This document shows positions 4,877 to 58,079 of a stretch of DNA of 64,000 bases, in pieces. The stretch is from Novipirellula aureliae (GTDB lineage: Bacteria > Planctomycetota > Planctomycetia > Pirellulales > Pirellulaceae). The translations under genes were made by a program, and so were the position numbers. The stretch spans positions 212,316-276,315 of the forward strand of contig NZ_SJPY01000009.1 in assembly GCF_007860185.1 (NCBI RefSeq). The letters run 5' to 3'. How positions within the stretch are numbered: position 1 is the stretch's first letter; every line of letters begins with the position of its first letter. A model generated the notes under the pieces. The model had not been told where the DNA came from and made no database searches. It saw only the letters and a program-made list of their open reading frames with translations.

Positions 4877-5139
4877 CGTTCATGGCTCCAAGTTGTGAAT
4901 CGGGTGTCTAACCGACGCAGCGATCAGCGAATCGAGGACGCATCGCTGGTTCGGGCGTCTGGATTGAAAAGCTAACGAGTGAAGGGGCTCTACATGCTCT
5001 AGGCGTCTGCGACGGCGGTAACCGGAAACTAATAACCGAAAAAGCTTGCTGGCAGTGCAAAAGCCGTTAGGACGGGTCGATTGGGGATCTGCAGAGGAGA
5101 GGGGCTGCGGTATTCGTTCAAAACTCAAGGATTCCAGTC
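4877..5139. promoter_or_regulatory. divergent spacer upstream of the surface gene and the sigma-kinase relic
   Basis: This spacer separates the minus-strand surface gene from the plus-strand relic. Bases about 5003-5145 resemble about 9147-9295, the leader of the intact sigma gene. Both have a GGCGTCTGCG block, a run ending ACCGGAAA, and a shared ATTCCAGT block just before ATGCCCA. The conserved block probably carries the ancestral sigma-gene promoter or leader. No -35/-10 pair is assigned. Confidence 0.45.
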
Positions 5140-5430
5140 ATGCCCATTGCGAACACCGAGGCCAGGGCGGAGAAATTGAATGATGGCGGTGAAGCAATTG
5201 ATGTTTCGCTAATCGCACGCCTACTGCCTCAGTCAACAGCAATCGATTGGAAGTCGAACGCTGAACCCAATCAGTGGGTACGGGCGAAGAGCTTTCACGC
5301 CCTGATCTTGTTGATCTGGCTCGCGCAGGCGATCAGCATGCCTTTAGAAAAAGGCACGCCAGCTGGAAGCTTACGCCACTTTGGAAACTACCAAAACTTG
5401 CAATTTTTCTTAATTTGCTTTTCCGGTTGA
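5140..5430 (+). pseudogene. in-frame deletion relic joining an ECF sigma factor to the tail of a membrane kinase
   Basis: The 96-codon frame starts like the intact sigma factor at 9288: an MP..NTE start, then DVSLIARLLPQ.TAI against DVSLIARLIPQLTAI, then NQWVRA against NQWLRA. It then jumps directly to KSFHALILLIWLAQAI, which matches the last transmembrane segment of the neighbouring kinase (KSFHALVLLISLSEAI). Sigma regions 2-4 and the whole kinase domain are missing. The simplest reading is one large internal deletion in a second sigma-kinase pair. It happens to keep the frame, so a short chimeric peptide could still be made, but sigma or kinase activity is very unlikely. Confidence 0.82.
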
Positions 5431-6921
5431 CACCGACGCGGACGCCTAAGGCCAGTAGAGTCCGTCTTTTTATTTCAAATTTCGCACAGAACGAGCATCG
5501 TCGTCACCGACTACGTAGACAGCGCACGGGAAAAAGGGGGAAAGCCGAGATGTCGAATCAATTACGGGGCAATTACGGGCATTCCGGAATCGACGCAGAC
5601 TCCGTCAACGATTGTCCGAGCCAGGCTGGCGCTGATCCGCAACCATAACTCGCCCGCCCCGTGTTTCTATCGGCCTCGTGGCGAAACGTTTGAGGCTTGC
5701 TACCTCCTGGACAACACGCTGCTGGCGTCCCAGTCCGAGTCAGCATCGATTCAGATTGAATGCAACAGTTACTACACCGACCCTGTTAGCGATAGTGGTC
5801 AAACAATCGCCTGGTACACCTTTGACGACGCGGAACCTTCTAAAGAATTATCAGGAAATGTTGAGATCACTCTTTTCGAAGTAGCGCACGCCGAGGCCGT
5901 GAACTGACGATCACAGGACGCAATGATTTTGATGACGACATACAAATCGGCATTAGCGAGAACGATAGCGGAATTATCGTTGTAACGGTGAACGATCCTT
6001 CTGCCCAGCAAGTCCTGAGCAGCCGAGTCGCAGCGTTGTCGACCGACGACGAGCCGGTCGAAGTGCCATTTGAATTCTTTGTTGACAATATCGATCGCAT
6101 CACCTTCCATGGGCTCAGTGGCGATGATTCACTCGTGCTTTGGGATTCATGGGGCGAACAAGATAAGGCCATTCCGATCGTTGCCTTTGGCGGTTCGGGA
6201 AAGGACAGTCTTGAAGGAGTTGCCTGCCAACGAAGCGATTGTGCTCGCCTCCAGTGAACAGCAGGGGCCGTTGAGCTTGGGAATTGTCCCTGTTCAATGG
6301 GCGTTTAAGGTGAATCAAGCCATCGAGTTTGGCATTATCGCTGGACTGGACACACACGGCTTGGCGACGGGGCGATTGGAACGGCTTCGAAATGGGCTTT
6401 ATCTTAAAGAGATTTCCTTAAAGTCCACTGCAAAACTGAGTGCCGAAATTGGCTGGGATACCGAAGAGATTAAGGGCAAGCTTAAGAAACTCATTCCATC
6501 GTTAAAAACCATCGATGTCGTTGTTCGGGCCGAGATTGTCGGTACCGTTGGGATCGGCCAAGATTGGTTCTTCGGGCGTGATTCGAAGACATACTTTTTC
6601 GGTGGCAACGCATCGCGTCCCACGCTCAACGTCCAACCATTCTCGATCGGACGACTGGACTTGGAAGCAGAAGTGGGAGTCGAAGCGAGAGGCTGGGCAG
6701 GTGATCTTGTCGACGATCTCAATGATTTAGTGGATGTCGGTGAAGACGTCTACGTCGAGGTTGTCCAATTCGTTTACTATCTGTTAGGGTTTGTCACCGG
6801 AGAGAAAGTCAAGCGGGTTCGCAAGCCTGAAGTGGAGATTCCAAAAGAGTGGCATCACGAATGGGACAAGTCACTGATCGATATCACACGAGAGCTTCCA
6901 GCGATTCGAGTGGAGCTTTAA
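5431..6921 (+). pseudogene. frame-broken remnant of a large secreted protein
   Basis: Coding-like sequence continues across three frame segments. Frame 1 is open at 5431-5907 and contains for example GETFEACYLLDN and SGQTIAWYTFDD. A second frame runs about 5886-6215 (ELTITGRNDFDDDIQIGI, then FHGLSGDDSLVLWD). The first frame resumes from about 6215 to a TAA at 6919-6921 (EAIVLASSEQQGPL, then a C-terminus ending PAIRVEL). The middle part resembles the RTX-like, calcium-binding beta-roll ends of planctomycete surface proteins. At least two frameshifts, near 5890 and near 6215, interrupt it, and no start codon with a leader motif remains. It follows the decayed sigma-kinase pair as the giant gene at 11916 follows the intact pair, so it may be the decayed counterpart. 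The last 230 codons (6225-6921) could still be expressed. Confidence 0.62.
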
Positions 6922-7019
6922 GGTTACAATTTAGGTTCCGCGACCCAAACTCACACCGACTCAAACGGTGGAACATTTGATTGAAGTAAAAGAAATGACG
7001 CGGTCTGAAGTGACGCGAG

Positions 7020-7057
7020 CGACCGGCACTCGACGCTCGACGATTACTCGCCGGTCG
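7020..7057. terminator. possible hairpin between convergent genes
   Basis: Perfect 8-bp arms CGACCGGC (7020-7027) and GCCGGTCG (7050-7057) enclose 22 bases. They lie 55 bp beyond the stop of the minus-strand CAP gene and about 100 bp after the end of the plus-strand remnant. The loop is long and there is no T-run, so this is tentative. Confidence 0.3.
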
Positions 7058-7111
7058 TCTGTTCTTTTGACGGTTTCGTCGAGATGCAACTCAACGATCA
7101 CGAATTGACGT

Positions 7112-8848
7112 TTATTCGAGGGAACGTAGAGCCATGCTGTCGATCGAAAATCCGATGTCTGCCAACGAAGAGAATAAGTGATCTCGGACTCGTTCGTTAT
7201 CTCGGACACTTTCAACGCCGCTCGGCGGCGGACTTCCCGAGGAAACTGACGTTGAGTCACTCATCCAGGCGGTCGATCGAATCAAAACGGAAGGCGCGGT
7301 CAACGTCTCGCTGATACCGTTGATCCTGCGAAGGTTCTCGGACGGTTCGTCGCGATCTGATTTTTCAACCGTGCCATACTGCTCTGGTTCAGGGACCACA
7401 ACAACGGGATTTGAATCGTGGATGATCGCATTGATGACTTGTAATGCGTCGAGTGCCGTCACCTTAAAATCGCCGGAAACGTCATAGAAATTGAACAGGT
7501 TCACGTCAATGGATTGCTCATCACGCAACTCGCCATTGGGATTGTTGCTGTAGCGACGAAGCGATAGTTCATTGATAATCTTGAGCGCGTCGCTGGCCGT
7601 AACCGAAAGGTCGCCACTGACGTCAAAAGCGTTGACCGGATTCTGAAACGACGACGGACCGACCAGATCGATGATCGCTTGATCATGACGAAACTGCCGG
7701 ATGAGAGCCCCCTCGCTCAGTCGAGCCGATTCAAACTTCCAACCTGGCTCGAAGACAACCCTGTCTCCCGAATTCGCGAGCACCGTCAACGGGGTTAAGG
7801 GCAATAACGATCCAAGCCTGCCAGCATCAACGACGAGCGTATTGTCGCCCTTACCGCGAATATCAATCGTGACGAGCGCACTTAAGTCAACTTGCGGATC
7901 AGCCAGACGAATCAATTCGTCGGCACCCAGCAACACGAGACTCTCTTTGACCGGATCGACGGAAACAAATTCTTCCGTTCGCACATCAATTTTGATATTT
8001 TGGTCCGTGACCACGATCACACCAAGATCAATCGATTCTAAACGACTTGATGAATACGCGGTCAGTTGGTAGCTGCCAGAACCTACCCGCAGCGCATATC
8101 CGCCGGAACTTCCCGTCGTCGTCACGAACAGTGGCCCGTTGGACTGACGAGCCTCAATAATGATCCCTCCGCGACCTTCGCCCAGGCTGTAAAAATCGTC
8201 GGCAGTCTTAGAGTCTTCAAAGGCAACACCCGTGATCGAATACTCGTCTTGCACACCGCCTCCGAAGACTTGTGTGACCAAAATCCCTGTAGCAATCTGC
8301 CCGCTACTAAAAGTAATCGGCCCCCGTTCGAAGCCAAGTCCAACGTCACGATATCTAGGTAAAAGAAAGTTATAACGATGCCCTGGGCTTCCATAGAGAT
8401 CAAAATGAAGGAGCGTGGATGCACGAACTAGACTAATTCCGCTCCGCGCGGCCAAGTTTTCGCCCGCAAATCCCGATCCGTATCCAGCATTAAGAGCACG
8501 CTCAAAGGGCCGAAGTCCATCCGGGTTTTCATGGGCGAAAAAACCTCGCTCGATCATGTCTTGCGAGTGTGCGATTGCTACGTCGTTGAGTACGGTGATT
8601 GGCGCGAGCGGCTGTTTGGGATCCGACGTAATTGCGCCTGGATTAAGTCCCTCGTTGAGATCGATCTGCCTGCGTGCTGCCTCTGCTAATGGATCGGCAC
8701 GTGCCCGATTGATTAACTCCAGCATTTGTTGGTCGTAAATGGACATGGTGGCCGATGCCTGCTCAATGACATCCATATCCGCCACCATCAGTCGACGAAC
8801 TTCCAAGTTTTCGATTGCCAATCGTCGCTTCGGTCGTCGGAGGTTCAT
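7112..8848 (-). CDS. secreted CAP (SCP/PR-1) domain protein with dockerin
   Basis: I chose the ATG at 8848 (578 residues) rather than the one at 8887. From 8848 the protein starts with a basic stretch (NLRRPKRR) and then IENLEVRRLMVAD, the LEPR-XLL-type leader. Residues about 36-215 form a CAP domain with the expected signatures: HSQDM.ERGFFAHENPDG, AGYGSGFAGENLA and GSPGHRYNFL. A carboxypeptidase-regulatory-like beta domain follows at about 222-305. Two dockerin type I loops lie at about 410-475 (DVSGDLSVTASDALKIIN and DVSGDFKVTALDALQVIN). CAP proteins are extracellular with varied, often unclear, biochemical roles. Dockerins bind Ca2+ and cohesins, but no cohesin partner is visible. The gene diverges from the ECF sigma gene at 9288, which may control it. 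Confidence 0.88.
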   Translation of the reverse strand: MNLRRPKRRLAIENLEVRRLMVADMDVIEQASATMSIYDQQMLELINRARADPLAEAARRQIDLNEGLNPGAITSDPKQPLAPITVLNDVAIAHSQDMIERGFFAHENPDGLRPFERALNAGYGSGFAGENLAARSGISLVRASTLLHFDLYGSPGHRYNFLLPRYRDVGLGFERGPITFSSGQIATGILVTQVFGGGVQDEYSITGVAFEDSKTADDFYSLGEGRGGIIIEARQSNGPLFVTTTGSSGGYALRVGSGSYQLTAYSSSRLESIDLGVIVVTDQNIKIDVRTEEFVSVDPVKESLVLLGADELIRLADPQVDLSALVTIDIRGKGDNTLVVDAGRLGSLLPLTPLTVLANSGDRVVFEPGWKFESARLSEGALIRQFRHDQAIIDLVGPSSFQNPVNAFDVSGDLSVTASDALKIINELSLRRYSNNPNGELRDEQSIDVNLFNFYDVSGDFKVTALDALQVINAIIHDSNPVVVVPEPEQYGTVEKSDRDEPSENLRRINGISETLTAPSVLIRSTAWMSDSTSVSSGSPPPSGVESVRDNERVRDHLFSSLADIGFSIDSMALRSLE

Positions 8849-9287
8849 CGTTTCCAAATTTTGTACGCGGGTAAATCTGTGTACCAACCATTGCCGGAGT
8901 TGCGGAATGAACTCCGTTCTACGTCAGTTATCGCCGCATCTAATGTTATTTCGAAGCGACACCCGCGGCGAAGCCGCCTTAAGTTGATCCTATCACGATT
9001 AAATCAACAGGCCGCTAACCCTAAAACTCAATCCTGACAGACCACTAGTTCGATTTTACTACTGGCTTCCCCCCTGTCAATCTCACTGGGGTTAGGCTCG
9101 GGGTTCGCCAATGTCAACCGGTTTCTGGGTTAGAGACAGTTCCCGGGCGTCTGCGGTGGCGGTTACCGGAAAAAAATGTCAAAAAAACTTGCGGTCGATA
9201 CTGTCGGCCGCTAGGATGGGGGGTGTGCCTCTGGTGAGGGGGTTTGCCCCGTTTTGACACCCATCCAAAAAGCCCCGCATTCCAGTT
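8849..9287. promoter_or_regulatory. divergent spacer upstream of the CAP gene and the ECF sigma gene
   Basis: This 439-bp spacer has no gene. Its right part (about 9147-9287) is the leader shared with the decayed sigma copy at 5003-5139. Two divergent promoters are expected here. Because ECF factors often drive their own genes and a neighbour, this block is the best place for a cognate motif, but I cannot define one from two copies. Confidence 0.4.
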
Positions 9288-9935
9288 ATGCCCAATACGA
9301 AAACTGAGTCCAGTGCAGAAAGCGAGTCCAGTGCAGAAAGCGAGTCCAGTGCAGAGTGTTCGAGTGAGAACCGCGAAACGTTTGATGTGTCGCTGATCGC
9401 ACGGCTAATTCCTCAGTTGACAGCGATCGCTCGCAATTCAATCGCTCGAAGGTGGCAGTCGAAAGTGGGCGCGTCGGACATTGTCCAAAACACCTTTCTC
9501 GAGGCTGCCGATACACTTTCCTCTTTCTCTGGCTCATCCATTGCTGAGTTCAATCAGTGGCTGCGAGCGATCCTGGCTCACAATCTGCAAGACTCGCGTC
9601 GGAAGTTTGTGGTTGCCCAGATGCGGAGCGTGGAGCGAGAGCAGCCGATGGATCGATTCATCGGTCCGCTGTTAAAAACCAGCGAAAAGTCTCCTGTGGG
9701 TGTCGCAGTGTCTAACGAGTTCGATCGTGAACTGCATCGTGTGATCGGTACGCTTGATCAAATTGACCAGCAGATTCTGACGCTGCGGTACCAGCAGAAA
9801 CTAGCGTTTGGCGAAATAGGAACTCGAGTCAATATGAAAGAGGATACGGTGCGGAAGCGGTGGGGTCGCATCTTGAAGTTACTCCAACACAAACTGCGTC
9901 GTTTTGATTCGCAGGCTTGTTCCAGACGGGTTTGA
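9288..9935 (+). CDS. ECF-type RNA polymerase sigma factor, planctomycete kinase-linked type
   Basis: A 215-residue sigma factor. After a low-complexity N-terminus (residues about 7-25, ESSAES repeats) come region 2 (DVSLIARLIPQLTAIARNSI, then WQSKVGASDIVQNTFLEA, the usual ECF core-binding and -10 helix) and region 4 (IDQQILTLRYQQKLAFGEIG followed by MKEDTVRKRWGRILKLLQ, the -35 helix-turn-helix). It ends 1 bp before the start of a membrane Ser/Thr kinase. That arrangement fits the ECF groups of Planctomycetes that are linked to kinases rather than to classical anti-sigma factors. Control by phosphorylation is inferred. A decayed paralogue lies at 5140. Confidence 0.92.
   Translation: MPNTKTESSAESESSAESESSAECSSENRETFDVSLIARLIPQLTAIARNSIARRWQSKVGASDIVQNTFLEAADTLSSFSGSSIAEFNQWLRAILAHNLQDSRRKFVVAQMRSVEREQPMDRFIGPLLKTSEKSPVGVAVSNEFDRELHRVIGTLDQIDQQILTLRYQQKLAFGEIGTRVNMKEDTVRKRWGRILKLLQHKLRRFDSQACSRRV
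9306..9356 (+). repeat. 18-bp tandem repeat in the sigma gene's 5' end
   Basis: The unit GAGTCCAGTGCAGAAAGC occurs twice in full (9306, 9324) and a third time in part (9342), encoding ESSAES. Copy number could change by slippage without breaking the frame. The decayed copy at 5140 lacks it. Confidence 0.85.
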
Positions 9936-9936
9936 T

Positions 9937-11625
9937 ATGGATGCCCATGGTGATCTGGGAGCAGAGATTCCAGACGATCGCGTTGATCTGTCAGAATTGG
10001 ACGATGCGTTCCAACTGCTCGCCTCTGGGTCAAGTGGTGAGCAGGTGGAATCCATAGCCGAGTTGTTCGCTGCTTCCGGAACTGGCGGGGGTGACGATGA
10101 GGAGTCGATCCACAAAAACGCCGCTTTGCTGTTGCGACTTGCCAAGCATTATTCGGATCGGCCGCCCGAAGTTCCGATTGCCGCCGACGGTCATGTCATT
10201 CCGAAGCAGATTGGTCGCTTTTCCATTCTTCGAGAGATTGGCAGTGGCGGTTTTGGTGTGATCTATCTTGCTCGTGACGAAGCGATCGGTCGCGATGTCG
10301 CGATCAAACTTCCGCGACGCGATCTGATCCAGGACGCGGTTCGCCGAAAACAGATGATTCATGAGGCCCGCACAGCAGGTTCACTTGAACACCCTGGCAT
10401 CATCCCCATCTACGAGAGTGGATGTGAGGGGGAGACCGTTTATCTGGTTTCCTCCTACTGCGAAGGTCCCGACCTGGCGACTTGGCTTGGTTCTCAAACG
10501 GAGCGACCGAGCGTGATCGAAATTGCCTCGTTTGTCAGTCGGTTGGCCGATGCGGTGGCCTATGCCCACGGTAAGGGGGTGATCCATCGCGACATCAAAC
10601 CCAGCAATGTGTTGCTGGCGCTCGATGTAGTGGGTCCGGATGTAGTGGGTCCGTCGGAAAGTAGATCGCTGGAAGCCACAGCCACATCGAAAAGTGAGCC
10701 CCCGCAATCCGTGCCGTTGTCAGCCTACCGACCGCGATTGACCGATTTTGGATTGGCCAAATTTTCTGACGAACCGATTGTTGACACGCGCAGCAGTCTG
10801 ATCATTGGCACACCGTTGTACATGGCCCCCGAGCAGTTGCTGCCCGATTTGGGGCCGATCACTTTTCAGACGGACATTTATTCAATCGGGGTCTTATTGG
10901 TCGAGCTGATCGATGGGAAACCGCCGCTAAGTGGAAAGACCTACGTTGAGATCTTGTCATTCTTTCAAGATGAGCCGCGCAAATCGATTGTCTATTCAGA
11001 CATTCCATCTGACTTGCGAACGATCATAGACAAATGTCTTAGCAGGACACCCGAAAATCGTTATGCATCCGCAGACGCCTTGTCGGTGGACTTAGCCGCT
11101 TTCGCCGCAGGAGAAACGATATCCGCTCGCAAAATGACATGGATCACTCGAGCACGGGTGTGGTGTCGCGATGCTCGGCGCACGCGCGAAGCTTGTGTCT
11201 CTACCGTTGCAGCAATGTCCGCTCTGATTGTCTGGGTCTTGTACTCTATCTCCCTGGTCATGGGGCCATGGTTTCCTGGTGACGATCCATGGACACCAGC
11301 GATTCAAGCACTTGCGATCATCGCTTGCATTAATCTGCCGGTACTGGTTTTGGCTGTCTTGGGGCTTCGCAGAAAGATCTGGGCGATGAAGGTCGCGATG
11401 TTATTGTTGTTAACCGGAGGCGTTTTTGTACCGCTCTTGATCATTGGCGATTTTGTCGGTTTGCTTGATCCCATTTACGGCCCGTTCCCCTATTTCAAGA
11501 AGAGTTTTCACGCTTTGGTCTTGTTGATCAGCCTTTCGGAGGCGATCTACCTATCCATTGGCATTTATGCGAATCGATGGAATTGGAAACGCCACCGTCC
11601 AGCAAAGATGGCGACAGCAAGGTAG
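9937..11625 (+). CDS. membrane Ser/Thr protein kinase paired with the ECF sigma factor
   Basis: I chose the ATG at 9937, one base after the sigma stop, over a TTG at 9904 that overlaps the sigma gene. This gives 562 residues. The Hanks-type kinase domain (about 96-365) is complete: GSGGFG from residue 102, VAIK (about 121-124), HRDIKPSN (about 217-224), DFGLA (about 270) and APEQ. The C-terminus (about 425-550) has four hydrophobic segments, so the kinase is membrane anchored by its C-terminal half with a cytoplasmic catalytic domain. It probably transmits an envelope signal to the sigma factor encoded just upstream. A 15-bp duplication (10624-10638 and 10639-10653) lies in a linker between HRDIKPSN and DFG that is longer than usual. 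Confidence 0.93.
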   Translation: MDAHGDLGAEIPDDRVDLSELDDAFQLLASGSSGEQVESIAELFAASGTGGGDDEESIHKNAALLLRLAKHYSDRPPEVPIAADGHVIPKQIGRFSILREIGSGGFGVIYLARDEAIGRDVAIKLPRRDLIQDAVRRKQMIHEARTAGSLEHPGIIPIYESGCEGETVYLVSSYCEGPDLATWLGSQTERPSVIEIASFVSRLADAVAYAHGKGVIHRDIKPSNVLLALDVVGPDVVGPSESRSLEATATSKSEPPQSVPLSAYRPRLTDFGLAKFSDEPIVDTRSSLIIGTPLYMAPEQLLPDLGPITFQTDIYSIGVLLVELIDGKPPLSGKTYVEILSFFQDEPRKSIVYSDIPSDLRTIIDKCLSRTPENRYASADALSVDLAAFAAGETISARKMTWITRARVWCRDARRTREACVSTVAAMSALIVWVLYSISLVMGPWFPGDDPWTPAIQALAIIACINLPVLVLAVLGLRRKIWAMKVAMLLLLTGGVFVPLLIIGDFVGLLDPIYGPFPYFKKSFHALVLLISLSEAIYLSIGIYANRWNWKRHRPAKMATAR

Positions 11626-11915: not shown

Positions 11916-14900
11916 ATGACATTTTCAGGCATTCGCAGGCTCGACAAGTTCCTTGCTTCCCGCAAATCGCAGCGTTTTGCGCTTCAACGCCGCAAAACCT
12001 CGCTGCGCCGCCAAAAACGGCTGGCGATCGTCGAACGACTGGAAGAACGGCACTTGCTGGCGGCCGTCACTTTGGATTTGAATGGCAGTGATGATGGTGG
12101 AATCGACTTCGCGGCCACGTATGCGGAGGGCAGCAGTGCAGCGTTGCTGCAGGATGGAGACCTGACAGCGGCGGCTGGAACAGTGGTGACCAGGCAGCCA
12201 GGGAGCGAATTTCAGGTCAACACCGAGACAGTGAGCAATCAAACGATCGGTATCAGTGGCCGGGGGCGATATGTGGCCAGCGATGCCAACGGAAACCACA
12301 CCGTCGTCTGGATCAGCTTCGGGCAAGACGGCAACAGCAACGGGATCTTTGGTCAACGCTACGACACCGTCGGAGTAGCCGCTGGCGGCGAATTCCAGGT
12401 GAACACAACGACCAGTGGCAATCAGTCCAATCCGTCGCTGACCATGGATGATGCCGGGAACTTCCTGGTGGTGTGGGAAGGAAACGGCCCAGGCGACAGC
12501 ACCGGAGTGTTCGGTCAGCGATTCAATCCAGATGGAACAAAGGCAGGTGGTGAGTTCCTGATTCCAACGGCTGCCACTGGAAATGCGTCGAGGCCGGTCG
12601 CTTCGATGAATGGCGACGGGGACTTCGTGGTGGTGTGGTCGAACACCGAAGTTTACGGTCAGCGATTTCTGGCGGATGGTAGCCGAGTTGGTTCAGAGTT
12701 TCTGGTCAATCCCACTCAGACCGGTGGACAGGCATCGGTGGCGATGGACGATGCCGGGGGATTCTTTGTCGCCTGGTCTACTTACGGTATTTCGAATGAG
12801 ATATTTGGGCGTCGATACGCATCTAACGGCACCGCTGTGACGGACGAATTTCAGGTCAATACGTTCACAGAAAAAAATCAGGACTATGTCGCCGTCGATA
12901 TCGACGACGCCGGTAATTCCGTCGTCACGTGGAACAGCCAGGATCAGGACGACTATTTTGGCAGCCTGCGCGATGGCATTTACGGGCAACGGTTTGATCC
13001 CATTGGACTGCCAGTGGGCGGTGAGTTTCGGATCACGACTAACGACTCGCGGGACAAACGTTACTCGTCGCTAGCGATGGACAGCGTCGGCAATTTTGTT
13101 GTGACGTGGAGCAGCTATTTTCAGGATGGCAGCTATTACGGTGTCTACGGGCAGCGGTTCTATGCTGACGGAACCATGGCCGGTGACGAATTTCTGATCA
13201 ACGAGACCACCGATGATGATCAGCAAAATCCTTCCGTCGATTTACTCGACAATGGTGATTTCTTAACGGTCTGGCTAAACGAACCAGCACCTGGTGAACG
13301 AGAAGTATTCGGGCGATATTTTCGCTCCGCCTCCGGATTGATCGATAAGGCGACCGTCTCGATCACCAATCCATTGGACGGCACGGACGAAGTACTAACG
13401 GTCGACACGTCGGGCACCGCCATTGCCGCTGAATACCGGAACGGATTATTGACGTTGAGCGGTGTGGATAGTGAAGCCAACTACCAGCAGGTGCTACGAA
13501 CAGTTCGTTACGAAAACACATCAGAGGATCCCGACACGACGGATCGGCAGGTGGAATTCGTCGTGCGGGTCGCCGAATTCGACAGCGCGGTCGCTACGTC
13601 GACTCTGACGGTCGCTGCGGTCAACGACTTTCCTGAAGTTGCCGTCAGCGGAAGTACAGCGGTGACGATCGGTGAAGGGCAACTGGCCTCGATTAGCGGC
13701 ACCTTTTCGGACGTCGACAGTGACGATGTCGTGCTGACCGCTTCCATCGGTGACGTCCTCGCCAACAACGACGGCACCTGGGACTGGACATTCGCGACCA
13801 GCAATGATCCCGCCGAAAACGGTACCGTCACGATTACCGCCACGGATACCGAAGGCGACGCCACAACAGCGACGTTCGACCTAACTGTGAGCCCGCTACC
13901 GTTTGATTTTCGTATTGACCGCTGGGAGGAACACCGCGCCCATGAACCGGATACGCCGTTTGGCAATGAGGTCATCACGTTGGGCGACGTCAACGGCGAC
14001 GGCGCCACGGATCGAGCGATCTTTACCAGCTACGGAACGTCTGGTACTTACGTTCTTCTGATGAACCCCGATGGCTCGGTGCAAAGTCGTAGTTGGGTAG
14101 ATTACCGTTCGAGTGGAACGCTGGCGTCGGCGGGAGATATCGACGGCGACGGCATTGAAGAGCTTGCGGTGGGCGTCGGGACGGCTAATGCAGGCGGGTC
14201 AGTGACACTGATTTTCCTTAACTCCGACGGATCCGTTCGCGAGACAAGTAGGATTGAAGGCGGATCCGGCTTTGGCAATTCGGTGGCTGCGATTGGCGAT
14301 CTGGACAACGACGGTGTCAACGACATTGCCGTGGGAGCCACGCGAGCGGACGGCCAGGCGGGAGCCGTCTATGTGCAATTCATGAACGCCGACGGAACTG
14401 TTGCCTCGTCAACAACAATCGGCGACAACATCGGCGGCGGCCCCAGTCTGCAGTCGTTCTCTCGCATGGGCTCTTCACTGACCAACATGGGCGACCTCAA
14501 CGGTGACGGTGTGACGGATCTGGCGGTCGGTGCCTACTATCACGGCCAAGGCAACGTTGCCTCACGCAGCGGAGCCGTCTTTATGCTGATGATGAATCCC
14601 GACGGCACTGCCCTAAGCACCACGCGTCTGACTCGCGAGACCGGCATTCCCGTGGACCGCGACGCAGGATTTGGACTTGACGTCGTTGCGATCGGGGACC
14701 TCGACGGCAATGGAGTCAATGATTTAGCAGTGGGTGCGCTGGGGTCCGGGACACAGTCGGGTTCCGTCTTTCTTGTTCTGTTGAATTCGGACGGTACGTC
14801 GAAGGGGATTCGGAAGTTTCATGAAGGTGCGTTCGGTGCGCCAACCGAGGCGGATGGCACAACGCCGATCCCGTACTTCTATGGTCGCGCATTGACGAAC

Positions 14901-17900
14901 ATGGGTGATCTGGACGGCAACGGTATTGACGATCTGTGGGTTTCATCAACGCGAACGTCCACGACTCATCTACTCTACTTAACCAACGGTGTTGTGCGTG
15001 CGGATTCCAGCAGCGTGACCATTACGGAAGGCCAGACGGCCAGCAACTCCGGCACGTTTGTTGATCCCGGCGACGGTTCGGGCACGTTGTCGGCGTCGGT
15101 GGGCACGGTCACTGCATCCGGGGCCGGTGTGTGGAGTTGGTCTTTGCCGACGACGGACGGACCTCTTGCCGCACCGTACGTCGACATCTTTCTGACGAAC
15201 GACGGAGGTGACGTTGATTCCGTACGTTTTCGCCTGGACGTGCAAAATGTGGCTCCCACCATCACGGACCTTCAATTCGACACATCTGCCATTGATGAAG
15301 GCGGTTCGGTGGTGCTGACCGGACAGTTCTCTGATCCCGGCACCGATGACACTCACACCGTGACGATCGACTGGGGTGATGGTTCCCGGGACGTGATCGC
15401 TGACGTTACGACAAATTCCTTCAGCCTGCACCACACGTACCTGGATGACCCCTATTCCGGTTCGGCGGAAGCTTCGTATCAGGTGTTGGTGACCGTTGTC
15501 GACGACGACGGTGGCGAGGCAACAACGGTCGATGCTGCAGCCGGTCAGACGCAGCGAGTCTCCGTTGCCTCGGACGGCAGCGAAGCTGAACTCGCTGCGG
15601 GAACCTTTGCGATTTCCGGTGATGGTCGCTACGTCACGTTTGCTTCGTCTGCCACGAACTTGGTCCCCAACGACACCAATAGTAAACGCGATGTCTTTGT
15701 TCATGATCGTGTAACGGGTCTGACAAAACCAATCTCCGTCGCCTCAGACGGAAGTGAAGCCAACGACCATTCAGGCCAAAGTGTGTTGAGCGGTAATGGT
15801 CGGTATGTCGTGTTCGAGTCGAGAGCGTCCAATCTGGTTCCGGGTGACACCAACGGCACCACTGACATCTTTGTCCACGATCTGCAGACCGGAGAAACAC
15901 GTCGGGTCTCGGTCGCCTCCGACGGTACACAGGCGAATGGCTTTTCGTCCTTGCCTGCTATTTCAGCAAACGGTCAGTACGTCACATTCGAGTCGCATGC
16001 CTACAACCTTGTGCCCGGTGACACAAACATTCAAAGGGACATTTTTGTACACAACCTGCAGACGGGAATTACGGAGTTAGCCAGTGTGGCGTCGGACGGA
16101 ACGCAGGGCAATAGGGGGGGGCAACGTCCTTCGATCTCTGCGGACGGTCGCTACGTGTCATTTGATACAGATGCGACCAATCTGGTCGACGGCGATACGA
16201 ATGGCGAATTCGACGTCTTCGTCCGTGATCGTCTAACGGGAACAACAACGCGAGCGTCCGTCAGTTCAACGGGTGCCCAATCGGATCGCGACGCTTTGCG
16301 CAGTCAGATATCCGGCGACGGACGACACGTGGTGTTCTACTCCAACGCAACGACACTTGTCGCCAACACGTTTTCCAGGACTCAGGTCTTTCTCCATGAC
16401 CTGATAACAGGGCACACAGAACTGGTGTCGGTAAATGATTCCGGTGACCCGGCCGATGAAAATTCCGGCTATCCCCAGCCGACGGTTTCTCACGACGGTC
16501 GCTTCGTTGCTTTCGTGTCCGACGGCAAGAATCTGGTCGAAGGAGATACCAACAATCGACCGGATGTCTTCGTTCGTGACCGCATCGATGGTACCACAGA
16601 ACGTATCTCCGTAACGAACGATGGTGCGCAATCAACAGGCCGACCAACCGGTGCAGCCATTGCCGCCAATGGACTGGTGGTTGCGTTTTCTTCGGACGCC
16701 ACCGATCTGGTTGCCGGCGACACGAACGGGGTGGCAGACATCTTTGTGCGAGGACTTGGCGAACCTGGCCTCGCCTCGCCCGAGTTGCTGGTCCGCAATC
16801 TTGATCCCGTGCTGGCAGACTCCGGCGACGTCCAGCTCGCCTTTCAAAACCCTGTCCTGACCCGAGAAATCAGCTTCAGTGATGTTGGAGTCAACGATAC
16901 CCATACTGTGATCGTCGACTATGGCGATGGCAGTGATCCACAGACAATTGCTGTGTCGCCCGTCGGAGCACGGTCGTTCGACTTGAATCATACGTTTACC
17001 GCAATCGGCACCTTTACGGTCACGGTCACTCTCAGGGATGACGACGCAGGCGAAGCGATTGACAGTTTTGATGTGACGGTGCGACTGAACACTCCCCCAA
17101 CTGCGAATGCCGGAGGTCCCTATGTCGTCAACGAAGGAAGTGCGATACCGCTGAGTGCCAGCCTCACGTCAGATCCGGATCAAGACACGCAGTCGCTTAA
17201 GGTTCAATGGAATCTAGACGGAGACGAGGAGTTCGGGGAAAGTGGACTGGATGCTACGCGTGGTGACGAAATTGGGCTTCAACCTGAGTTCTCGGCGGCA
17301 CTCAGCGACGACTCCGATTCGATTGTGGTCCAGTTGCGAGTCGAAGACGAATGGGGAGCGGTCGATTTTGATTCTGTCGGCATCACCGTGGTCAACGTGG
17401 CTCCAACGTTGCAATTCGATTCGACAATCACTGTATTGAGTGGCGACAGCTTCACGCTTGACGGATCGTTTTTCGACCCGGGGCCCGATACTTGGACGGC
17501 CACCGTCAATTACTCGGACGGATCCGGCAATCAAACGCTGACGCTCAGTGGCAACGAGTTCCAATTGGCCCATACCTACAGCACCGCTGGTGTCTACTCC
17601 GCTGTCGTCACGATTGACGACGGAGATGGTGGAGTTACCAACAAGACTTTGACGGTGATCGTCGAGACTCCTCCTGTGCCAGATTTGGCAGATTTGACAT
17701 TGATCTCCTCCAATGTGCTCTTCCATCCGATCAATCCCGGTGTCGGCACTTCGGTTAACTTTGAAATTGATGTGACCAATAACGGGGAAATCCCGGCCGA
17801 CAACATCACCGTCAGCGTTCAAGTTTATGATTATGATGTCGATACCGACACTGGAGCGTACGTAGAAATCGATCGCGGCGTGATCACCTCACTCGCTGAG

Positions 17901-20852
17901 AATTCCGGTACCCGAATTGGCCTTACCTGGCATGGCACGGACGGCCAGCCAACACTACCGAACGAAGACACGTACCTGTTGGTGCGCGTCGTGCTTGATC
18001 CCGACTTGACCGTTGAAGAATCGGACGAATCGAACAACGAGGCGATTCAAGTCTTGCAAATCGGTAGCCCCGATTTCGGTTCGGCCGGTCTATTCGCCAC
18101 CGCGTCGGATCGCACGACAACTCGTGAGGCTTACGTGGCGGTCGGCGGTCAAGCGTTTTACAACTTCGGATCGATTCCTGGCGACAAAGACTTTCCTATT
18201 CAAAATGCGAGTGTGACGCTGCGAGTCTACGATTCAAGTAACAATCTGGTGAAGTCCTCTGGAACTCGTACGGGAATCGGTGGAGGCTTTTCGTATTTTA
18301 TTCACGCACCAGATAGAGATGGCGTCTACACACTTGAGTACGAGATTATCGAGGGAACGTTGAGTACGGTGGTTACTGCAACACTCAACGTTTCCGGTGA
18401 AACGCCCAACGCGCCACCACGTCCGAGTGGGCCCGGCGGGCCGGGCTACGTATTCTCGCCTTCGATTCAGTTAATGGATCCGGTGACTGAAGAACCGCAG
18501 CCGACGTTTCCGCCTGACAATCCGCAAATCGGCATACCCGTCACCATCATCGGTAGCTTTGACTATGAACTGGATCAACGTCTAGATGTGCCTGTGACAT
18601 TCAACGACCTCTTTCCGGTCGCGGGGCAGATGAGAACGTTTGAAATCGGCAGCGAAGTGCTCATTATCCCAGAGGGCGGTCTCGACGACCCCGCTTTGCT
18701 AGCCATGAATTGGGTGCCGACAGCGGAAGGGCTTCACATTATTCAAGTGATCGCTGAGCCGGAGTTCGCTTTCCGGGCACGTACTCATGTAACGCGAGCC
18801 GTTATGGTTGGCGACCTGGACACAACCTCGCTGACCCTCGAGTACGGGACGTCGATCGTGCCCGAGCCGGTGCCCGCGTTCGCACCGCTGATGTCCGCCT
18901 CTCGCGGTTTCGCCTCCGCTTTCGCCTTCTCTGCGCCAATGGCGATGGCGACCAGCGACGCGCCCGAGCCCGGTGACACGCTCGCGTTTACATTGAATTA
19001 CGAGAACACGGGTACGACCACCATCACCGGTGGATTCCTAATGGATGTTTTTGATGAAACATTGATGGGGACACCCGTAAACATCAGTCACGGCGGCATC
19101 GCCGATGGCAACGTCCTCCGTTGGGAACTCGGTGACATCGAGCCCGGTGCCTCTGGCACGGTGACTTACGAAGTCACGATTAACTCCGGAGCGGAATTCC
19201 CACCGGGGGCAGCTTTTGTTCAGAACACCGCGGTTCTGAACGCCGACCAAGCTGTCGCGGCGAGCACGAGCGAGATCACAGTTCGTAACAACGCCCCGGT
19301 GATCACTGGCCTGAACGTCGATCCGATGCTTGACGAGAACGGTGTCGTGACACTGTCGGGTACCTTTAGCGACGCCAGTATAGCGGATACACACACCGTT
19401 CAAGTCGAATGGGGTGATGGGAAAATCGAGACGCTGACGATCGATCCCGGCGAGCGATCGTTTACGATTCCACATCCGTACGGAGTGGATCATGCACCGC
19501 GGACAACCACTTATGACATCAATCTGAGCGTTACCGACGCAACCAGTCAGCAGGATACGGATAGCGTCAGCACCCAGGTGCCCGAGAATCAAATCTCGCC
19601 AGATGCGAAGTCGGACGACTATAACGTCAACCAAGCGGAAACGCTTTTAGTGGGAATTGATGACGGTGTACTAGCCAACGATTGGCCATCCACAACCGAT
19701 CCACTCGAGTCATTGCTAGTGACTGCGCCGGAGCATGCCAGCAGTTTTGTTTGGAACGCTGATGGTACTTTCACGTATACCCCAGAAGCCGATTTCCTAG
19801 GCACCGACAAGTTTTCCTACGTGGCCCAATCCAGTGGCAGACCAAGTGCAGCGACGACCGTCAGTATCAATGTCCACAATCTTGCCGCGACGATTGAGTC
19901 GGCGGTGATTACGGGCGCAGATGAGCAAGCCGTTGCGGGTGAAACACTAACACTCAACGGTACGTTCCTGGATTCCGGAACCGTCTTGGCTCATACCGGC
20001 ACGGTTGATTGGGGCGACGGCAGCGAATCAGAGCCGCTGACGGTCAGCTTCGAATTGGGCAGTGGTTCGTTCGCGGCGAATCATGCCTACGCAAATCCAG
20101 GATCCTATACTGCTACCGTCACAATCATTGATGGCGAGCTCGAAACGACGACGTCGATTGAGACGACCGTGATCGAGGTGGTCAATAGCGAGCCCGGCGT
20201 AACGCTCAACGAGGGGCAGTTGCGGATCATTGGTACGGACGAGAGAGACATCGTTTCGGTCTCACGCCGCGGATCACTCGTCTATGTCGCGGCCAGCTTC
20301 CTGCCTTCGGCTTATTGGTGGAGCCTCGGATCGGTTTCCTTCCCACTCTCGGATGTGCAAAAGGTCCATGCGGAGTTGGGCGCAGGCAACGATGTCTTCA
20401 GCATGTCGGCGTGGTTAGTGATGCCGACGATCATTGATGGCGGTGACGGCAATGATTTCCTCTACGCTGGTGGAGGCCCAAGTCTCGTGCTCGGTGGCGC
20501 AGGCAACGATCTACTTCGCGGTGGCCGCGACCGGAGCCTATTGGTCGGTGGAACTGGCCGAGACAACTTGATTGGCGGTCAAGAAGACGACGTTTTGATC
20601 GGCGGTGAGATTCAAGGAAACGATGGAAGCCTAAGTGGCGACGCGCTGCACGATCAAATCATGTCCGCTTGGAACAGCGACAATTCCTATGCAGACCGAA
20701 CCGATGCCGTGACCGCCTTGATCGACGATGTTGACGACAACGAGCGAGATTTATTGTTCGGGTTGTCAGGCCGCGACCTGTACTTTGACGGACTCGGCGA
20801 TCGGCTGTTGGGCGTCAGGAGATCTGGGTCTCAAGCGGAAAGCAGACGGTAA
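11916..20852 (+). CDS. giant secreted protein with three putative beta-propellers, PKD/Ig-like domains and an RTX end
   Basis: A 2978-residue surface protein. The basic N-terminus ends in VERLEERHLLAA (39-50), the LEPR-XLL-type motif. Visible order: seven roughly 50-residue repeats ending GIFGQRY/GVYGQRF (about 100-472); cadherin/VCBS-like segments (about 475-660); six FG-GAP blades with Ca2+ loops such as DLNGDGVTD and DLDNDGVND (about 680-1025); a VCBS-like and a PKD domain with DWGDGS; seven TolB/PD40-like repeats with TNLV.GDTNG and D.FVHD..TG (about 1209-1615); more PKD domains; a CARDB domain (about 1922-2050); a DUF11-like domain (about 2347-2457); a cadherin-like domain (about 2565-2655); another PKD domain; and RTX nonapeptide repeats GGDGNDFL/GGAGNDLL (about 2839-2902). 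It is probably a Ca2+-stabilised adhesin or surface scaffold; the target is unknown. Confidence 0.92.
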   Translation: MTFSGIRRLDKFLASRKSQRFALQRRKTSLRRQKRLAIVERLEERHLLAAVTLDLNGSDDGGIDFAATYAEGSSAALLQDGDLTAAAGTVVTRQPGSEFQVNTETVSNQTIGISGRGRYVASDANGNHTVVWISFGQDGNSNGIFGQRYDTVGVAAGGEFQVNTTTSGNQSNPSLTMDDAGNFLVVWEGNGPGDSTGVFGQRFNPDGTKAGGEFLIPTAATGNASRPVASMNGDGDFVVVWSNTEVYGQRFLADGSRVGSEFLVNPTQTGGQASVAMDDAGGFFVAWSTYGISNEIFGRRYASNGTAVTDEFQVNTFTEKNQDYVAVDIDDAGNSVVTWNSQDQDDYFGSLRDGIYGQRFDPIGLPVGGEFRITTNDSRDKRYSSLAMDSVGNFVVTWSSYFQDGSYYGVYGQRFYADGTMAGDEFLINETTDDDQQNPSVDLLDNGDFLTVWLNEPAPGEREVFGRYFRSASGLIDKATVSITNPLDGTDEVLTVDTSGTAIAAEYRNGLLTLSGVDSEANYQQVLRTVRYENTSEDPDTTDRQVEFVVRVAEFDSAVATSTLTVAAVNDFPEVAVSGSTAVTIGEGQLASISGTFSDVDSDDVVLTASIGDVLANNDGTWDWTFATSNDPAENGTVTITATDTEGDATTATFDLTVSPLPFDFRIDRWEEHRAHEPDTPFGNEVITLGDVNGDGATDRAIFTSYGTSGTYVLLMNPDGSVQSRSWVDYRSSGTLASAGDIDGDGIEELAVGVGTANAGGSVTLIFLNSDGSVRETSRIEGGSGFGNSVAAIGDLDNDGVNDIAVGATRADGQAGAVYVQFMNADGTVASSTTIGDNIGGGPSLQSFSRMGSSLTNMGDLNGDGVTDLAVGAYYHGQGNVASRSGAVFMLMMNPDGTALSTTRLTRETGIPVDRDAGFGLDVVAIGDLDGNGVNDLAVGALGSGTQSGSVFLVLLNSDGTSKGIRKFHEGAFGAPTEADGTTPIPYFYGRALTNMGDLDGNGIDDLWVSSTRTSTTHLLYLTNGVVRADSSSVTITEGQTASNSGTFVDPGDGSGTLSASVGTVTASGAGVWSWSLPTTDGPLAAPYVDIFLTNDGGDVDSVRFRLDVQNVAPTITDLQFDTSAIDEGGSVVLTGQFSDPGTDDTHTVTIDWGDGSRDVIADVTTNSFSLHHTYLDDPYSGSAEASYQVLVTVVDDDGGEATTVDAAAGQTQRVSVASDGSEAELAAGTFAISGDGRYVTFASSATNLVPNDTNSKRDVFVHDRVTGLTKPISVASDGSEANDHSGQSVLSGNGRYVVFESRASNLVPGDTNGTTDIFVHDLQTGETRRVSVASDGTQANGFSSLPAISANGQYVTFESHAYNLVPGDTNIQRDIFVHNLQTGITELASVASDGTQGNRGGQRPSISADGRYVSFDTDATNLVDGDTNGEFDVFVRDRLTGTTTRASVSSTGAQSDRDALRSQISGDGRHVVFYSNATTLVANTFSRTQVFLHDLITGHTELVSVNDSGDPADENSGYPQPTVSHDGRFVAFVSDGKNLVEGDTNNRPDVFVRDRIDGTTERISVTNDGAQSTGRPTGAAIAANGLVVAFSSDATDLVAGDTNGVADIFVRGLGEPGLASPELLVRNLDPVLADSGDVQLAFQNPVLTREISFSDVGVNDTHTVIVDYGDGSDPQTIAVSPVGARSFDLNHTFTAIGTFTVTVTLRDDDAGEAIDSFDVTVRLNTPPTANAGGPYVVNEGSAIPLSASLTSDPDQDTQSLKVQWNLDGDEEFGESGLDATRGDEIGLQPEFSAALSDDSDSIVVQLRVEDEWGAVDFDSVGITVVNVAPTLQFDSTITVLSGDSFTLDGSFFDPGPDTWTATVNYSDGSGNQTLTLSGNEFQLAHTYSTAGVYSAVVTIDDGDGGVTNKTLTVIVETPPVPDLADLTLISSNVLFHPINPGVGTSVNFEIDVTNNGEIPADNITVSVQVYDYDVDTDTGAYVEIDRGVITSLAENSGTRIGLTWHGTDGQPTLPNEDTYLLVRVVLDPDLTVEESDESNNEAIQVLQIGSPDFGSAGLFATASDRTTTREAYVAVGGQAFYNFGSIPGDKDFPIQNASVTLRVYDSSNNLVKSSGTRTGIGGGFSYFIHAPDRDGVYTLEYEIIEGTLSTVVTATLNVSGETPNAPPRPSGPGGPGYVFSPSIQLMDPVTEEPQPTFPPDNPQIGIPVTIIGSFDYELDQRLDVPVTFNDLFPVAGQMRTFEIGSEVLIIPEGGLDDPALLAMNWVPTAEGLHIIQVIAEPEFAFRARTHVTRAVMVGDLDTTSLTLEYGTSIVPEPVPAFAPLMSASRGFASAFAFSAPMAMATSDAPEPGDTLAFTLNYENTGTTTITGGFLMDVFDETLMGTPVNISHGGIADGNVLRWELGDIEPGASGTVTYEVTINSGAEFPPGAAFVQNTAVLNADQAVAASTSEITVRNNAPVITGLNVDPMLDENGVVTLSGTFSDASIADTHTVQVEWGDGKIETLTIDPGERSFTIPHPYGVDHAPRTTTYDINLSVTDATSQQDTDSVSTQVPENQISPDAKSDDYNVNQAETLLVGIDDGVLANDWPSTTDPLESLLVTAPEHASSFVWNADGTFTYTPEADFLGTDKFSYVAQSSGRPSAATTVSINVHNLAATIESAVITGADEQAVAGETLTLNGTFLDSGTVLAHTGTVDWGDGSESEPLTVSFELGSGSFAANHAYANPGSYTATVTIIDGELETTTSIETTVIEVVNSEPGVTLNEGQLRIIGTDERDIVSVSRRGSLVYVAASFLPSAYWWSLGSVSFPLSDVQKVHAELGAGNDVFSMSAWLVMPTIIDGGDGNDFLYAGGGPSLVLGGAGNDLLRGGRDRSLLVGGTGRDNLIGGQEDDVLIGGEIQGNDGSLSGDALHDQIMSAWNSDNSYADRTDAVTALIDDVDDNERDLLFGLSGRDLYFDGLGDRLLGVRRSGSQAESRR

Positions 20853-21791: not shown

Positions 21792-21900
21792 AACACCGTC
21801 ACGTTGCTTGACCATGGGGCGGCCTCGCGGTCGGAATCGATTCGAATCGGTGAATACGAAAGGTGGGGTAAGTTTCCTGATTACCTTAAAAAAGATCGCA

Positions 21901-21917
21901 AGCTGGAAGCTTACGCC
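21901..21917. repeat. 17-bp repeat shared with 5361-5377
   Basis: AGCTGGAAGCTTACGCC occurs here, upstream of the dehydrogenase gene, and inside the sigma-kinase relic at 5361-5377. It is probably part of a small dispersed repeat; its presence at 5361 may mark where the deletion or a later insertion took place. Confidence 0.6.
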
Positions 21918-21952
21918 TCTACGCCCTATACCAATTTTGTTAGAATCGTGGC

Positions 21953-34242: not shown

Positions 34243-34310
34243 GGTTGGTCTTGCCGGGCAAAGGCGGTCTTGGCGGGCAAAGGCCGGCAGGCCGATTGGG
34301 AGTGGCGGTC

Positions 34311-34360
34311 GTGGATCTTGCTAAAGATCCCCGGAAATTTGGATCTTTAACAAGATCCAC
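34311..34360. repeat. palindromic repeat (complete copy), possible terminator of the kinase gene
   Basis: Arms of 20 bp at 34311-34330 and 34341-34360 match as inverted repeats with one mismatch, around a 10-base loop. The right arm plus 4 bases recurs exactly at 937-960. It sits 9 bp beyond the stop of the minus-strand kinase gene, a good place for a terminator. Confidence 0.85.
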
Positions 34361-34369
34361 TACCTCTTT

Positions 34370-44398: not shown

Positions 44399-44508
44399 GG
44401 CTTTGTCGCCGCTTGATTTTTAGGCTTGGCAAAAGATCTGTCGATTTCGGCTACAATTTGTTTCGTGGTGCTTGGTCCATTGACGCAGTTCTTTCTCCGA
44501 AATTCGAT

Positions 44509-45666
44509 ATGAGCGAAAATCCTACCGTCGAGTCCTTCGCCGACGATCCGTTAAAAGCGTATCTGCCAAAATCGAATCCGCTGGCAATGCTGACCTCGGA
44601 GATGCCCGTAGCGGAACAATCCGCCAACACGGCTGCGGACGCGATCGAACCGCCCACCTCATTTGCTAAGCCATGTTCGCCGGTTCAAGCTCGACCGAAA
44701 GGGCCAGGACGTAGAACTGTATCGAGACGCCGTCGATCACCGGTTGGTATTTTTATTTTCGCCGGAGTGGCGGTAGCCTTCGTCACCATTCTCTGCAGCT
44801 TGGCGTGGATGTTTCTGTACCGATCATCGCCGGTTGCAAGTGCAATCCCTGCCGCCTCAAAACGGGATGACTCGAACGAGAGCCGGACTTTGTCGCCTGA
44901 ATTCGATCCCGTCTTCCATTCGCCGTCGAAATCGGAGCCGGACATCACGAGTGATGTCGTAACGGATGCTGGGAATCAGCCTTTTCCTTCCGAGCTTGCT
45001 TCGGAACCAATCGTGGTGGAGCAACCGGATGTCCCGATGCTGCCTCCCGGGAGTGCTAAGGAGGAAGAGTCCGTCCTAGAGAACCCGATGATGCCAACCG
45101 AAGCACATCAAAGCACTTTGACGCCTGATATGATTGCGGCAATGGAGATCGCGATTGGTCGGACGTCCGCATCGATACGAAATGCCGATTGGCAGCAGAT
45201 GAGTTCATTGGCGAAAACTTGTGTCGAGATGCCTGGAACGGATCACCAACTACGTATTGCCGAGTCGCTCTATCAGATTTCTGATTTGGCAAATCATTAC
45301 CGTGACGGCATTCGCCGCGGAATCGAAACCCTGAAAGCTGGAAGCGATTTTGAAATCGATTTCGGAGTTCGCGTGATCGTGGTCGAGGCAACACCACAGC
45401 GTTTGGTGGTACGTTTGAACGCCAAGACACACCGTTATCTATTTGACGAGATTCCGCTATTATTAGCACACCGACTAAGTACCTTTTCGATGTCCGAAAA
45501 ATCGCCCACGACGATCGCTGCAAAAGCTGCTTTTGAAGCAATTTCAAAAAATGCTACCCCCGAACATCGGCAGAGATCGATCAGAGTTTTGGAGTCGATC
45601 AACGAGCAGGTTCCGGATTTCGAGCCGAAACTTGTCGCCGAAGGGCTACAGCGATTGTATGAGTAG
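44509..45666 (+). CDS. hypothetical single-pass membrane protein
   Basis: I chose the ATG at 44509 (385 residues); the frame is open from 44413, but that segment has no protein-like features and lies right after carA. Proline/serine-rich, charged N-terminus, one membrane segment (GIFIFAGVAVAFVTILCSLAWMFLY, about 80-104), then an acidic periplasmic-like linker (to about 205) and a mostly helical C-terminal region with TLTPDMIAAMEIAIGRT. No known domain recognised. It precedes the SGNH/MBOAT pair by about 60 bp and may belong to the same envelope-modification unit; inferred only from position. Confidence 0.68.
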   Translation: MSENPTVESFADDPLKAYLPKSNPLAMLTSEMPVAEQSANTAADAIEPPTSFAKPCSPVQARPKGPGRRTVSRRRRSPVGIFIFAGVAVAFVTILCSLAWMFLYRSSPVASAIPAASKRDDSNESRTLSPEFDPVFHSPSKSEPDITSDVVTDAGNQPFPSELASEPIVVEQPDVPMLPPGSAKEEESVLENPMMPTEAHQSTLTPDMIAAMEIAIGRTSASIRNADWQQMSSLAKTCVEMPGTDHQLRIAESLYQISDLANHYRDGIRRGIETLKAGSDFEIDFGVRVIVVEATPQRLVVRLNAKTHRYLFDEIPLLLAHRLSTFSMSEKSPTTIAAKAAFEAISKNATPEHRQRSIRVLESINEQVPDFEPKLVAEGLQRLYE

Positions 45667-45729
45667 AGCGAAACAACACGCCTAGTAGAAGTGGTCGGTA
45701 GAGGGTGATTGGTAGAGGAAGATCGTCTC

Positions 45730-48162: not shown

Positions 48163-48714
48163 AGAAGTCAGGTTGTGTTTTGTTTTATCCGCTTGCCCGG
48201 TGGTCCACACCACTAGGTTTACTTGTTGACGTGGGTGTGACCGGTGCCCCCCCAGTGACGGCAGTGTCAAATGCGGAGCCCGTTGGGTAAGCGTTTAAGC
48301 GGTTAAGAATGCGCTCGTAGGTACGTACGTACTCGAAACCGTTTGCCCGATTGTGTTGCATGGCGGGAGTCTGGGAACGAGTGAAATATCCAATTTTGTT
48401 CAACGGCAGCAATTTTTTTTGGAATCCAATCCACCGCAGGACAAGTTTTTTGGAATGTAGGCTGTGGCTGAATTCCCGTCCACAAATCGGAAGAAAGTGT
48501 GTGTCTAGTTACCTTAGATGCTTTTCCATTTTATTGCGGTTCGGTATCAGCTCGCAATGCACGCCTATTGCTATAACGAGCAAGCTCAATACAACCAGAA
48601 AGGTTTGCATATTCTTCCCTCCCTACTACACTTATCCAAACTTCGACGAGTGAAATCGACTTGCTATTTGCTTATTGCTCAAACTGTTTTTTGAATTGCC
48701 GGGATACCAGCTAA
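48163..48714. promoter_or_regulatory. 552-bp gap before the exopolysaccharide operon
   Basis: No gene is supported. It probably contains the operon's promoter and a long leader. A 12-bp palindrome GTACGTACGTAC lies at 48321-48332, and a GGTGGTCCACACC palindrome just after the MBOAT gene (about 48199-48211) might take part in termination. I looked for a JUMPstart/ops element and saw none. Confidence 0.4.
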
Positions 48715-49554: not shown

Positions 49555-49598
49555 ACAAATTTCTCGACTTACTTCCTTGTACAAATGAAAAAAATTCC

Positions 49599-50681: not shown

Positions 50682-50691
50682 TGAGTAGCCA

Positions 50692-51258: not shown

Positions 51259-51265
51259 CCATATC

Positions 51266-51505: not shown

Positions 51506-51530
51506 GCTACTTACACTAACTGAATAGATC

Positions 51531-55059: not shown

Positions 55060-55085
55060 GTCCGAGGTCGTGGGAAACTTATTCG

Positions 55086-58009: not shown

Positions 58010-58079
58010 CTTTATTTCCATCGCTCACGAGCACTCGAGCGGATTTTTTGCCAAGCGTCTACTTAGGAAAATACTAATC

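Follow-up and report, generated by a model that had tools for sequence, protein, structure and literature searches.

The window analysed here, 64,000 nucleotides of Novipirellula aureliae DNA, contains a frame of 96 codons that begins like an ECF sigma factor and runs on into the last hydrophobic segment of a transmembrane kinase. How did such a frame arise, and does it still work? The stretch 5002-5632, here called the relic, is very probably the eroded rest of a second operon resembling that of genome G008 (another genus of the same family), and would be a pseudogene that no longer works.

The chimeric frame and the intact pair

An intact pair lies downstream, and 9288-11625 is predicted to encode an ECF sigma factor with regions 2 and 4 beside a transmembrane Hanks-type kinase. 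The gene at 9288 is ECF-type (Sigma70_r4, E-value: 4e-7), with region 2 scoring just under the Pfam cut-off (21.9 bits against 24) and TIGR02937 (sigma70-ECF) passing its cut-off (61.3 against 42.9). The best NCBIfam match is TIGR02984 (Sig-70_plancto1; E-value: 1.2e-35), but its 122.8 bits fall below the curated cut-off of 183.75 and the protein is not filed as a member. The sigma and kinase frames as listed overlap. A search of the own genome with the sigma factor returned the query itself (100%) and ten others at 24-40% identity, with no other close full-length paralogue. Values of dN/dS between the window and G008 (sigma: 0.25, kinase: 0.22) show that the intact pair is under constraint. 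One source on ECF groups paired with a Ser/Thr kinase and phosphorylation names ECF43, ECF59, ECF61, ECF62, ECF217 and ECF283 (PMC8999054). The intact locus, with an ECF-type sigma gene followed directly by a transmembrane kinase gene, may be likened to such groups by gene content alone; the relic differs in having lost the domains that would act.

Comparison of 4877-7112 with 7113-64000 (blastn, E-value < 1e-3) gave five same-strand matches. Four are to the sigma-kinase locus: the leader (5002-5049 with 9146-9192; 79%, E-value: 2e-4), the start-codon region (5131-5171 with 9279-9319; 80%, E-value: 2e-4), the sigma 5' part (5144-5262 with 9328-9446; 71%, E-value: 8e-10) and the kinase end (5286-5334 with 11499-11547; 82%, E-value: 4e-7). 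The fifth (5348-5380 with 21888-21920) is a repeat. The alignment of the relic to the kinase 3' end, proposed earlier as a check, matched at 40 of 49 positions, whereas the best of 200 shuffles reached 28. Because of this excess and the blastn matches, the chimera is taken as real rather than a chance match. Together they confirm the core of the sequence-only reading, that the predicted frame joins a sigma-like start, in frame, to the last hydrophobic segment of the kinase. The kinase frame is preserved across the junction 5285/5286.

Other parts of that reading had to be narrowed. It had described a near copy of the sigma factor; the start region is similar, but a second deletion is hidden inside the sigma part. 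It had also described the sigma and kinase domains as wholly missing with the frame kept; the core is indeed deleted and the frame kept, but about 11 codons of sigma region 2 remain (SNAEPNQWVRA against SIAEFNQWLRA). The leader, said to be conserved with 9147-9287, is so over about 48 nucleotides and the bases around the ATG, but not over the rest of that interval. The C-terminal end of the frame, about 31 of its 96 codons, belongs to neither gene and includes a REP-like repeat. The frame (5140-5427) matches 0 Pfam families, and no Pfam or NCBIfam family at an E-value of 0.001; it lacks the catalytic and DNA-binding domains, whereas the intact pair has Pkinase and Sigma70_r4 (Pfam). Sigma activity would not be expected of the relic because it lacks region 4 and almost the whole of region 2, nor kinase activity because the entire catalytic domain is gone.

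Table 1. Features of the relic and of the intact locus (positions in the window).
Feature	Position	Strand	Basis
Leader core common to intact operons (GGCG...GGTAACCGGAAA...CTTGC)	5002-5049	+	E-value 2e-4 against 9146-9192; G008 alignment
Chimeric frame, 96 codons, ATG start	5140-5430	+	ORF list
Sigma-factor 5' end, codons 1-35	5140-5245	+	blastn; G008 alignment
Remaining piece of sigma region 2 (SNAEPNQWVR)	5254-5285	+	G008 alignment; about 99 nt net lost before the piece
Kinase 3' piece, last hydrophobic segment (SFHALILLIWLAQAI), 3' of a 1915-nt gap	5286-5334	+	blastn, gapped alignment, shuffles
REP-like repeat (AGCTGGAAGCTTACGCCACTTT) in 3' part of the frame	5348-5382	+	blastn, repeat searches
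3' flank X, as 3' of the kinase in G008	5414-5632	+	blastn, gapped alignment
Intact ECF sigma factor	9288-9935	+	Pfam, NCBIfam, own-genome search
Intact serine/threonine kinase, C-terminal hydrophobic segments; start codon as listed	9904-11625	+	Pkinase E-value 7e-43, hydropathy
Giant secreted-type protein adjoining the pair (as in G008; divergent in G163)	11916-20852	+	ORF list, relatives' loci

The repeat in the tail of the frame belongs to a wider set. A DNA search of 241 family genomes with 4980-5650, scoring the best two or fewer candidates per genome, gave matches at E-values of 0.001 or below in 23: the own genome (G000), G008, G168 (one match of 38 bases) and 20 others, in which every match falls at about 5347-5389. 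The contexts of the repeat in those genomes have CGCAAGCTGGAAGCTTACGCCACTTT in common, at times as inverted pairs. A 17-base core of the repeat occurs at 16 places in the own genome with one mismatch at most (reversed control: 2), at 2 in G001 (control: 0), at 7 in G002 (control: 1) and at none in G008; a 19-base pattern with 2 mismatches occurs at 5 places in the own genome (control: 2). The stretch 5348-5382 is REP-like and is repeated in its own genome above control. The system for comparison is that of REP sequences with REP-associated tyrosine transposases (RAYT), as presented in one source (PMC3733652). Like REP sequences, 5348-5382 is a short unit found in many family genomes, sometimes in inverted pairs; unlike REP/RAYT systems, it has no transposase linked to it, and the hairpin predicted by folding is weak. 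Y1_Tnp has 13 matches in the own genome, of which some are fragmentary. Other short repeats, at 934-959 and 34308-34363, recur in both orientations in the part of the contig that precedes the window.

Upstream of the sigma genes, a TTG hexamer is followed after 17 bases by TAGGAT (the window pair and genome G163) or CAGAAT (G008); the relic counterpart is TTGCTG, 16 bases and TAGGAC. These TTG-N17-TAGGAT-like elements may be promoters, judging from the sigma-70 consensus that we take as the basis for calling them promoter-like. A consensus promoter scan found 0 sites in both 4880-5700 (relic) and 9100-9920 (leader of the intact pair) and thus does not separate the two. The promoter-like element before the sigma gene is preceded, at about 24 bases, by a conserved box, GGCG...GGTAACCGGAAA (GGAAACCGGAAA in G163); the box is present in the window at 9146-9175, 5002-5030 and 5421-5448, and also in G008 and G163. 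Inverted copies lie 3' of the kinase in G008 and 3' of the relic, where X starts with an inverted leader-core copy (about 5421-5448). The box is possibly an operator.

Collinearity with the G008 operon

Thirty genomes, the own included, were searched with the DNA of the pair, and the only other whole pair was that of G008 (C1:6292128-6294598; 86% identity). With the best ten or fewer candidates scored in each of the other 28 genomes, 16 had short kinase-domain matches (27-74 bases) and 12 had none. The order in G008 is leader, sigma, kinase, X and finally a giant gene, similar at its start to the gene at 11916. X, in which no known gene was found, is 78% identical between G008 and 5414-5632 (E-value: 6e-44). 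In an alignment permitting long gaps, the relic is collinear with the G008 operon from the leader through the 3' flank: 43/57 positions match in the leader block (4993-5049), 91/117 in the sigma-start block (5129-5245), 26/32 in the region 2 piece, 41/49 at the kinase end and 130/162 at the start of X, while the short blocks between long ones carry little information. At least three gaps interrupt the relic, of about 99 nucleotides net, of 1915 nucleotides at 5285/5286, and of about 212 nucleotides replaced by 58; the first two preserve the downstream frame. These gaps and the REP-like repeat do not agree with the single in-frame deletion scar described at first.

Past X, the open frames in 5633-6921 (5865-6254 and 6070-6921) overlap out of phase with each other and resemble a single coding region that has been broken. 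A decayed giant gene was sought there: three frames had no Pfam match up to an E-value of 1, 6070-6918 had no relative among the other 240 of the 241 genomes, and past X nothing matched the 50 kb surrounding the G008 pair at an E-value of 0.001. The only matches of 5633-6921 were weak and short (E-values: 0.01-0.02).

Alternatively, the 9288 pair could have been duplicated locally in tandem, and one in-frame deletion could then have turned the copy into the relic. Relic and pair are on one strand, separated by 4.1 kb, and have leader, sigma start and kinase end in common. That origin would need one deletion, however, and the relic shows more. Furthermore, X accompanies both the relic and the G008 operon but was not convincingly found 3' of the window's own kinase by alignment against 300 single-base shuffles, the relic's X scoring 31.5 against the post-kinase stretch (reached in 26/300 shuffles). 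The G008 downstream stretch scored 44 against the window (reached in 3/300); this alignment covers the last 60 or so bases of X and, after them, the region that precedes the giant gene, and possibly reflects a weak kinship of the G008 downstream stretch to the window's post-kinase stretch. Over 232 gap-free columns, the relic differs less from G008 (0.198) than from the neighbour pair (0.237), the two intact pairs differing by 0.134, and it was nearer G008 in 95.1% of bootstraps. Because of the X flank, the lack of a convincing X after the own pair and this greater nearness to G008, the relic probably did not arise by simple copying of the 9288 pair, and local duplication is unlikely. By a small margin, the comparison favours a remnant of a G008-like operon over a recent copy of 9288. 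Of the former duplicated pair proposed earlier, the relic of a second sigma-kinase pair stands, while simple local duplication is weakened by the 3' flank and the distances.

State of the frame and other explanations

Counts at codon positions 1, 2 and 3 are 9/4/10 for changes found only in the relic, 2/1/7 for those only in the window pair and 1/1/1 for those only in G008 (47 codons). Between the relic and G008 the counts are 13/10/15 (59 codons; third-position excess p = 0.26). With 59 or 47 codons and low power, these counts fit relaxed constraint in the relic. The dN/dS of the relic against G008 is 0.66 (59 codons) or 0.43 (the 47 codons common to all three); against the window pair it is 0.28, equal to that of G008 against the window pair (0.28), and this comparison, also of 47 codons and low power, does not show relaxation. 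The values below 1 in the relic partly reflect constraint on the intact partner and the period before decay. Weak constraint may nevertheless still act on the relic. The open frame needs no selection, since the homologous codons stayed free of stops in 32% of 20,000 trials with 38 random substitutions. Both internal junctions are in frame, an outcome of probability 1 in 9, and no stop intervenes as the frame continues into the REP-like tail; jointly with the 32%, this comes to a few per cent and would make the openness mildly unusual, as judged post hoc.

The predicted relic protein was searched for in the 241 genomes at E-values of 0.01 or below, a weak search for a short protein in which the window's intact sigma factor reached only 0.001. 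Matches were found in four genomes: the own (itself and the neighbour sigma), G008 (its sigma) and two that were marginal (E-values: 0.003 and 0.006) and contain a stop. The frame itself was not seen in the other 240 genomes by this weak short-protein search. An independent conserved small gene, an outcome that would contradict the sequence-only reading, was thus not seen in the 241 family genomes and is unsupported by DNA (best two or fewer candidates each) and protein searches, both of limited reach.

Could the fused frame be a small membrane protein that still works, for instance by binding to the intact kinase with the retained last helix? The frame is open, with its own ATG, conserved bases 5' of the start and junctions in frame, the peptide has one hydrophobic stretch (17-residue mean: 1.75) and its dN/dS is below 1. 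However, there is no third-position bias against G008, the frame was seen in none of the other 240 genomes by the weak protein search, the promoter-like -10 is altered, the tail is formed partly by the REP-like repeat, and the hydrophobic stretch is short and contains Q and P. A working protein is therefore improbable, and the narrower proposal, that a peptide with the kinase's last helix is made and tunes the intact neighbour kinase, is slightly more so; if true, it would be a regulator derived from the remains of its own paralogue.

A MITE-like mobile element, a 450-bp unit between inverted leader-core copies, is suggested by an inverted match between 4985-5037 and the beginning of X in G008 (79.6%, E-value: 9e-4), which was no longer listed at that threshold once the subject covered 50 kb. 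Multiple copies bearing terminal inverted repeats were not found: the leader core (three mismatches at most) has two occurrences in the own genome, one in the relic and one in the pair, and a search of that genome with 4880-7111 gave only itself and the kinase end of the pair among the best 10 of 39 candidates. Moreover, the same inverted pair flanks the intact operon in G008, and such an element is very improbable here. The draft state of the assembly (40 contigs) might also suggest an artefact joining two parts of the pair, but the relic pieces, at about 24% divergence from the pair, are not misplaced copies of it, and the site is internal to a contig of 299,866 bases, which leaves an artefact barely conceivable.

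Proposed transfer and decay, and the sigma-kinase module

Seven matches of 44400-64000 to G008 are 65-74% identical, against 86% for the pair and 78% for X. In G001 and G002, of the same genus as the window, matches to the pair are of 56 bases or fewer and in the kinase domain (best ten or fewer candidates). The kinase C-terminus was found in 9 of the 241 family genomes at an E-value of 1e-5, the own included, and not in G001 or G002; a pattern scan for it in contigs of named relatives confirmed 0 of 52 matches. Because the pair is 86% identical in G008 while other matching genes are 65-74%, and two genomes of the same genus gave no pair, horizontal transfer of the operon is likely and would be the simplest reading. 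In G008, the block syntenic with the window maps to 2.02 Mb and the pair to 6.29 Mb; the 50 kb around that pair have no DNA match to the window at an E-value of 0.001 beyond the operon, X and the giant gene. A fragment of a Tn5-type transposase (Dimer_Tnp_Tn5, E-value: 8e-16; DDE_Tnp_1, E-value: 2e-4) ends some 110 bases before the G008 leader (L027 11709-12344) and is a possible carrier of the module.

It had been proposed to look for the intact pair at the orthologous place in sister genomes. When 30 window ORFs were compared, in G001, G002 and G008, with the 60 kb that lie upstream of the syntenic block (E-value: 1e-10), the only matches were with 48715-49554 (G008 and G002) and one at 28% identity in G001. 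No orthologous place of the relic was found in these three genomes by that search, and the G008 operon lies elsewhere in its chromosome.

The giant gene adjoining the pair has an LE(E/D)RHLL motif near its N-terminus in the window, G008 and G163, where the pairs are closest to one another among the genomes searched. It lies downstream of the pair in the window and G008 and is divergent in G163 (C2, L070). Between G008 and G163 the giant genes are 77% identical over 4.3 kb and the pairs only 66%, and from these identities parts of the module seem to have been shuffled. Beside the more distant pair of G059, a giant gene of this type was not seen within the 12 kb examined.

The history proposed for the relic is as follows. 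A second operon, consisting of leader, ECF sigma factor, transmembrane Ser/Thr kinase and flank X, would have been acquired by horizontal transfer, as the intact pair presumably was. It would then have become redundant, and the sigma and kinase domains would have been lost through stepwise deletion, the open frame being a by-product. In ordinary bacterial pseudogenes formed by internal deletion, the ends of the locus remain, the core is gone and substitutions are relaxed. The relic is similar in its surviving ends and lost core, and its substitution pattern may be relaxed as well, but it differs in that its frame stays open and joins two adjoining genes. It was not met in the literature, in a search too loosely aimed to call it unpublished.

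As a pseudogene the relic would be ordinary in kind, and it is its history that is useful. It also calls for caution, since deletions can leave a frame open that annotation then records as a small membrane protein. Two copies of the operon in one genome would represent different stages, one eroded and one constrained. The relic would thus be a trace of turnover in a module of sigma factor, kinase and giant protein that seems to move between planctomycete-like genera.
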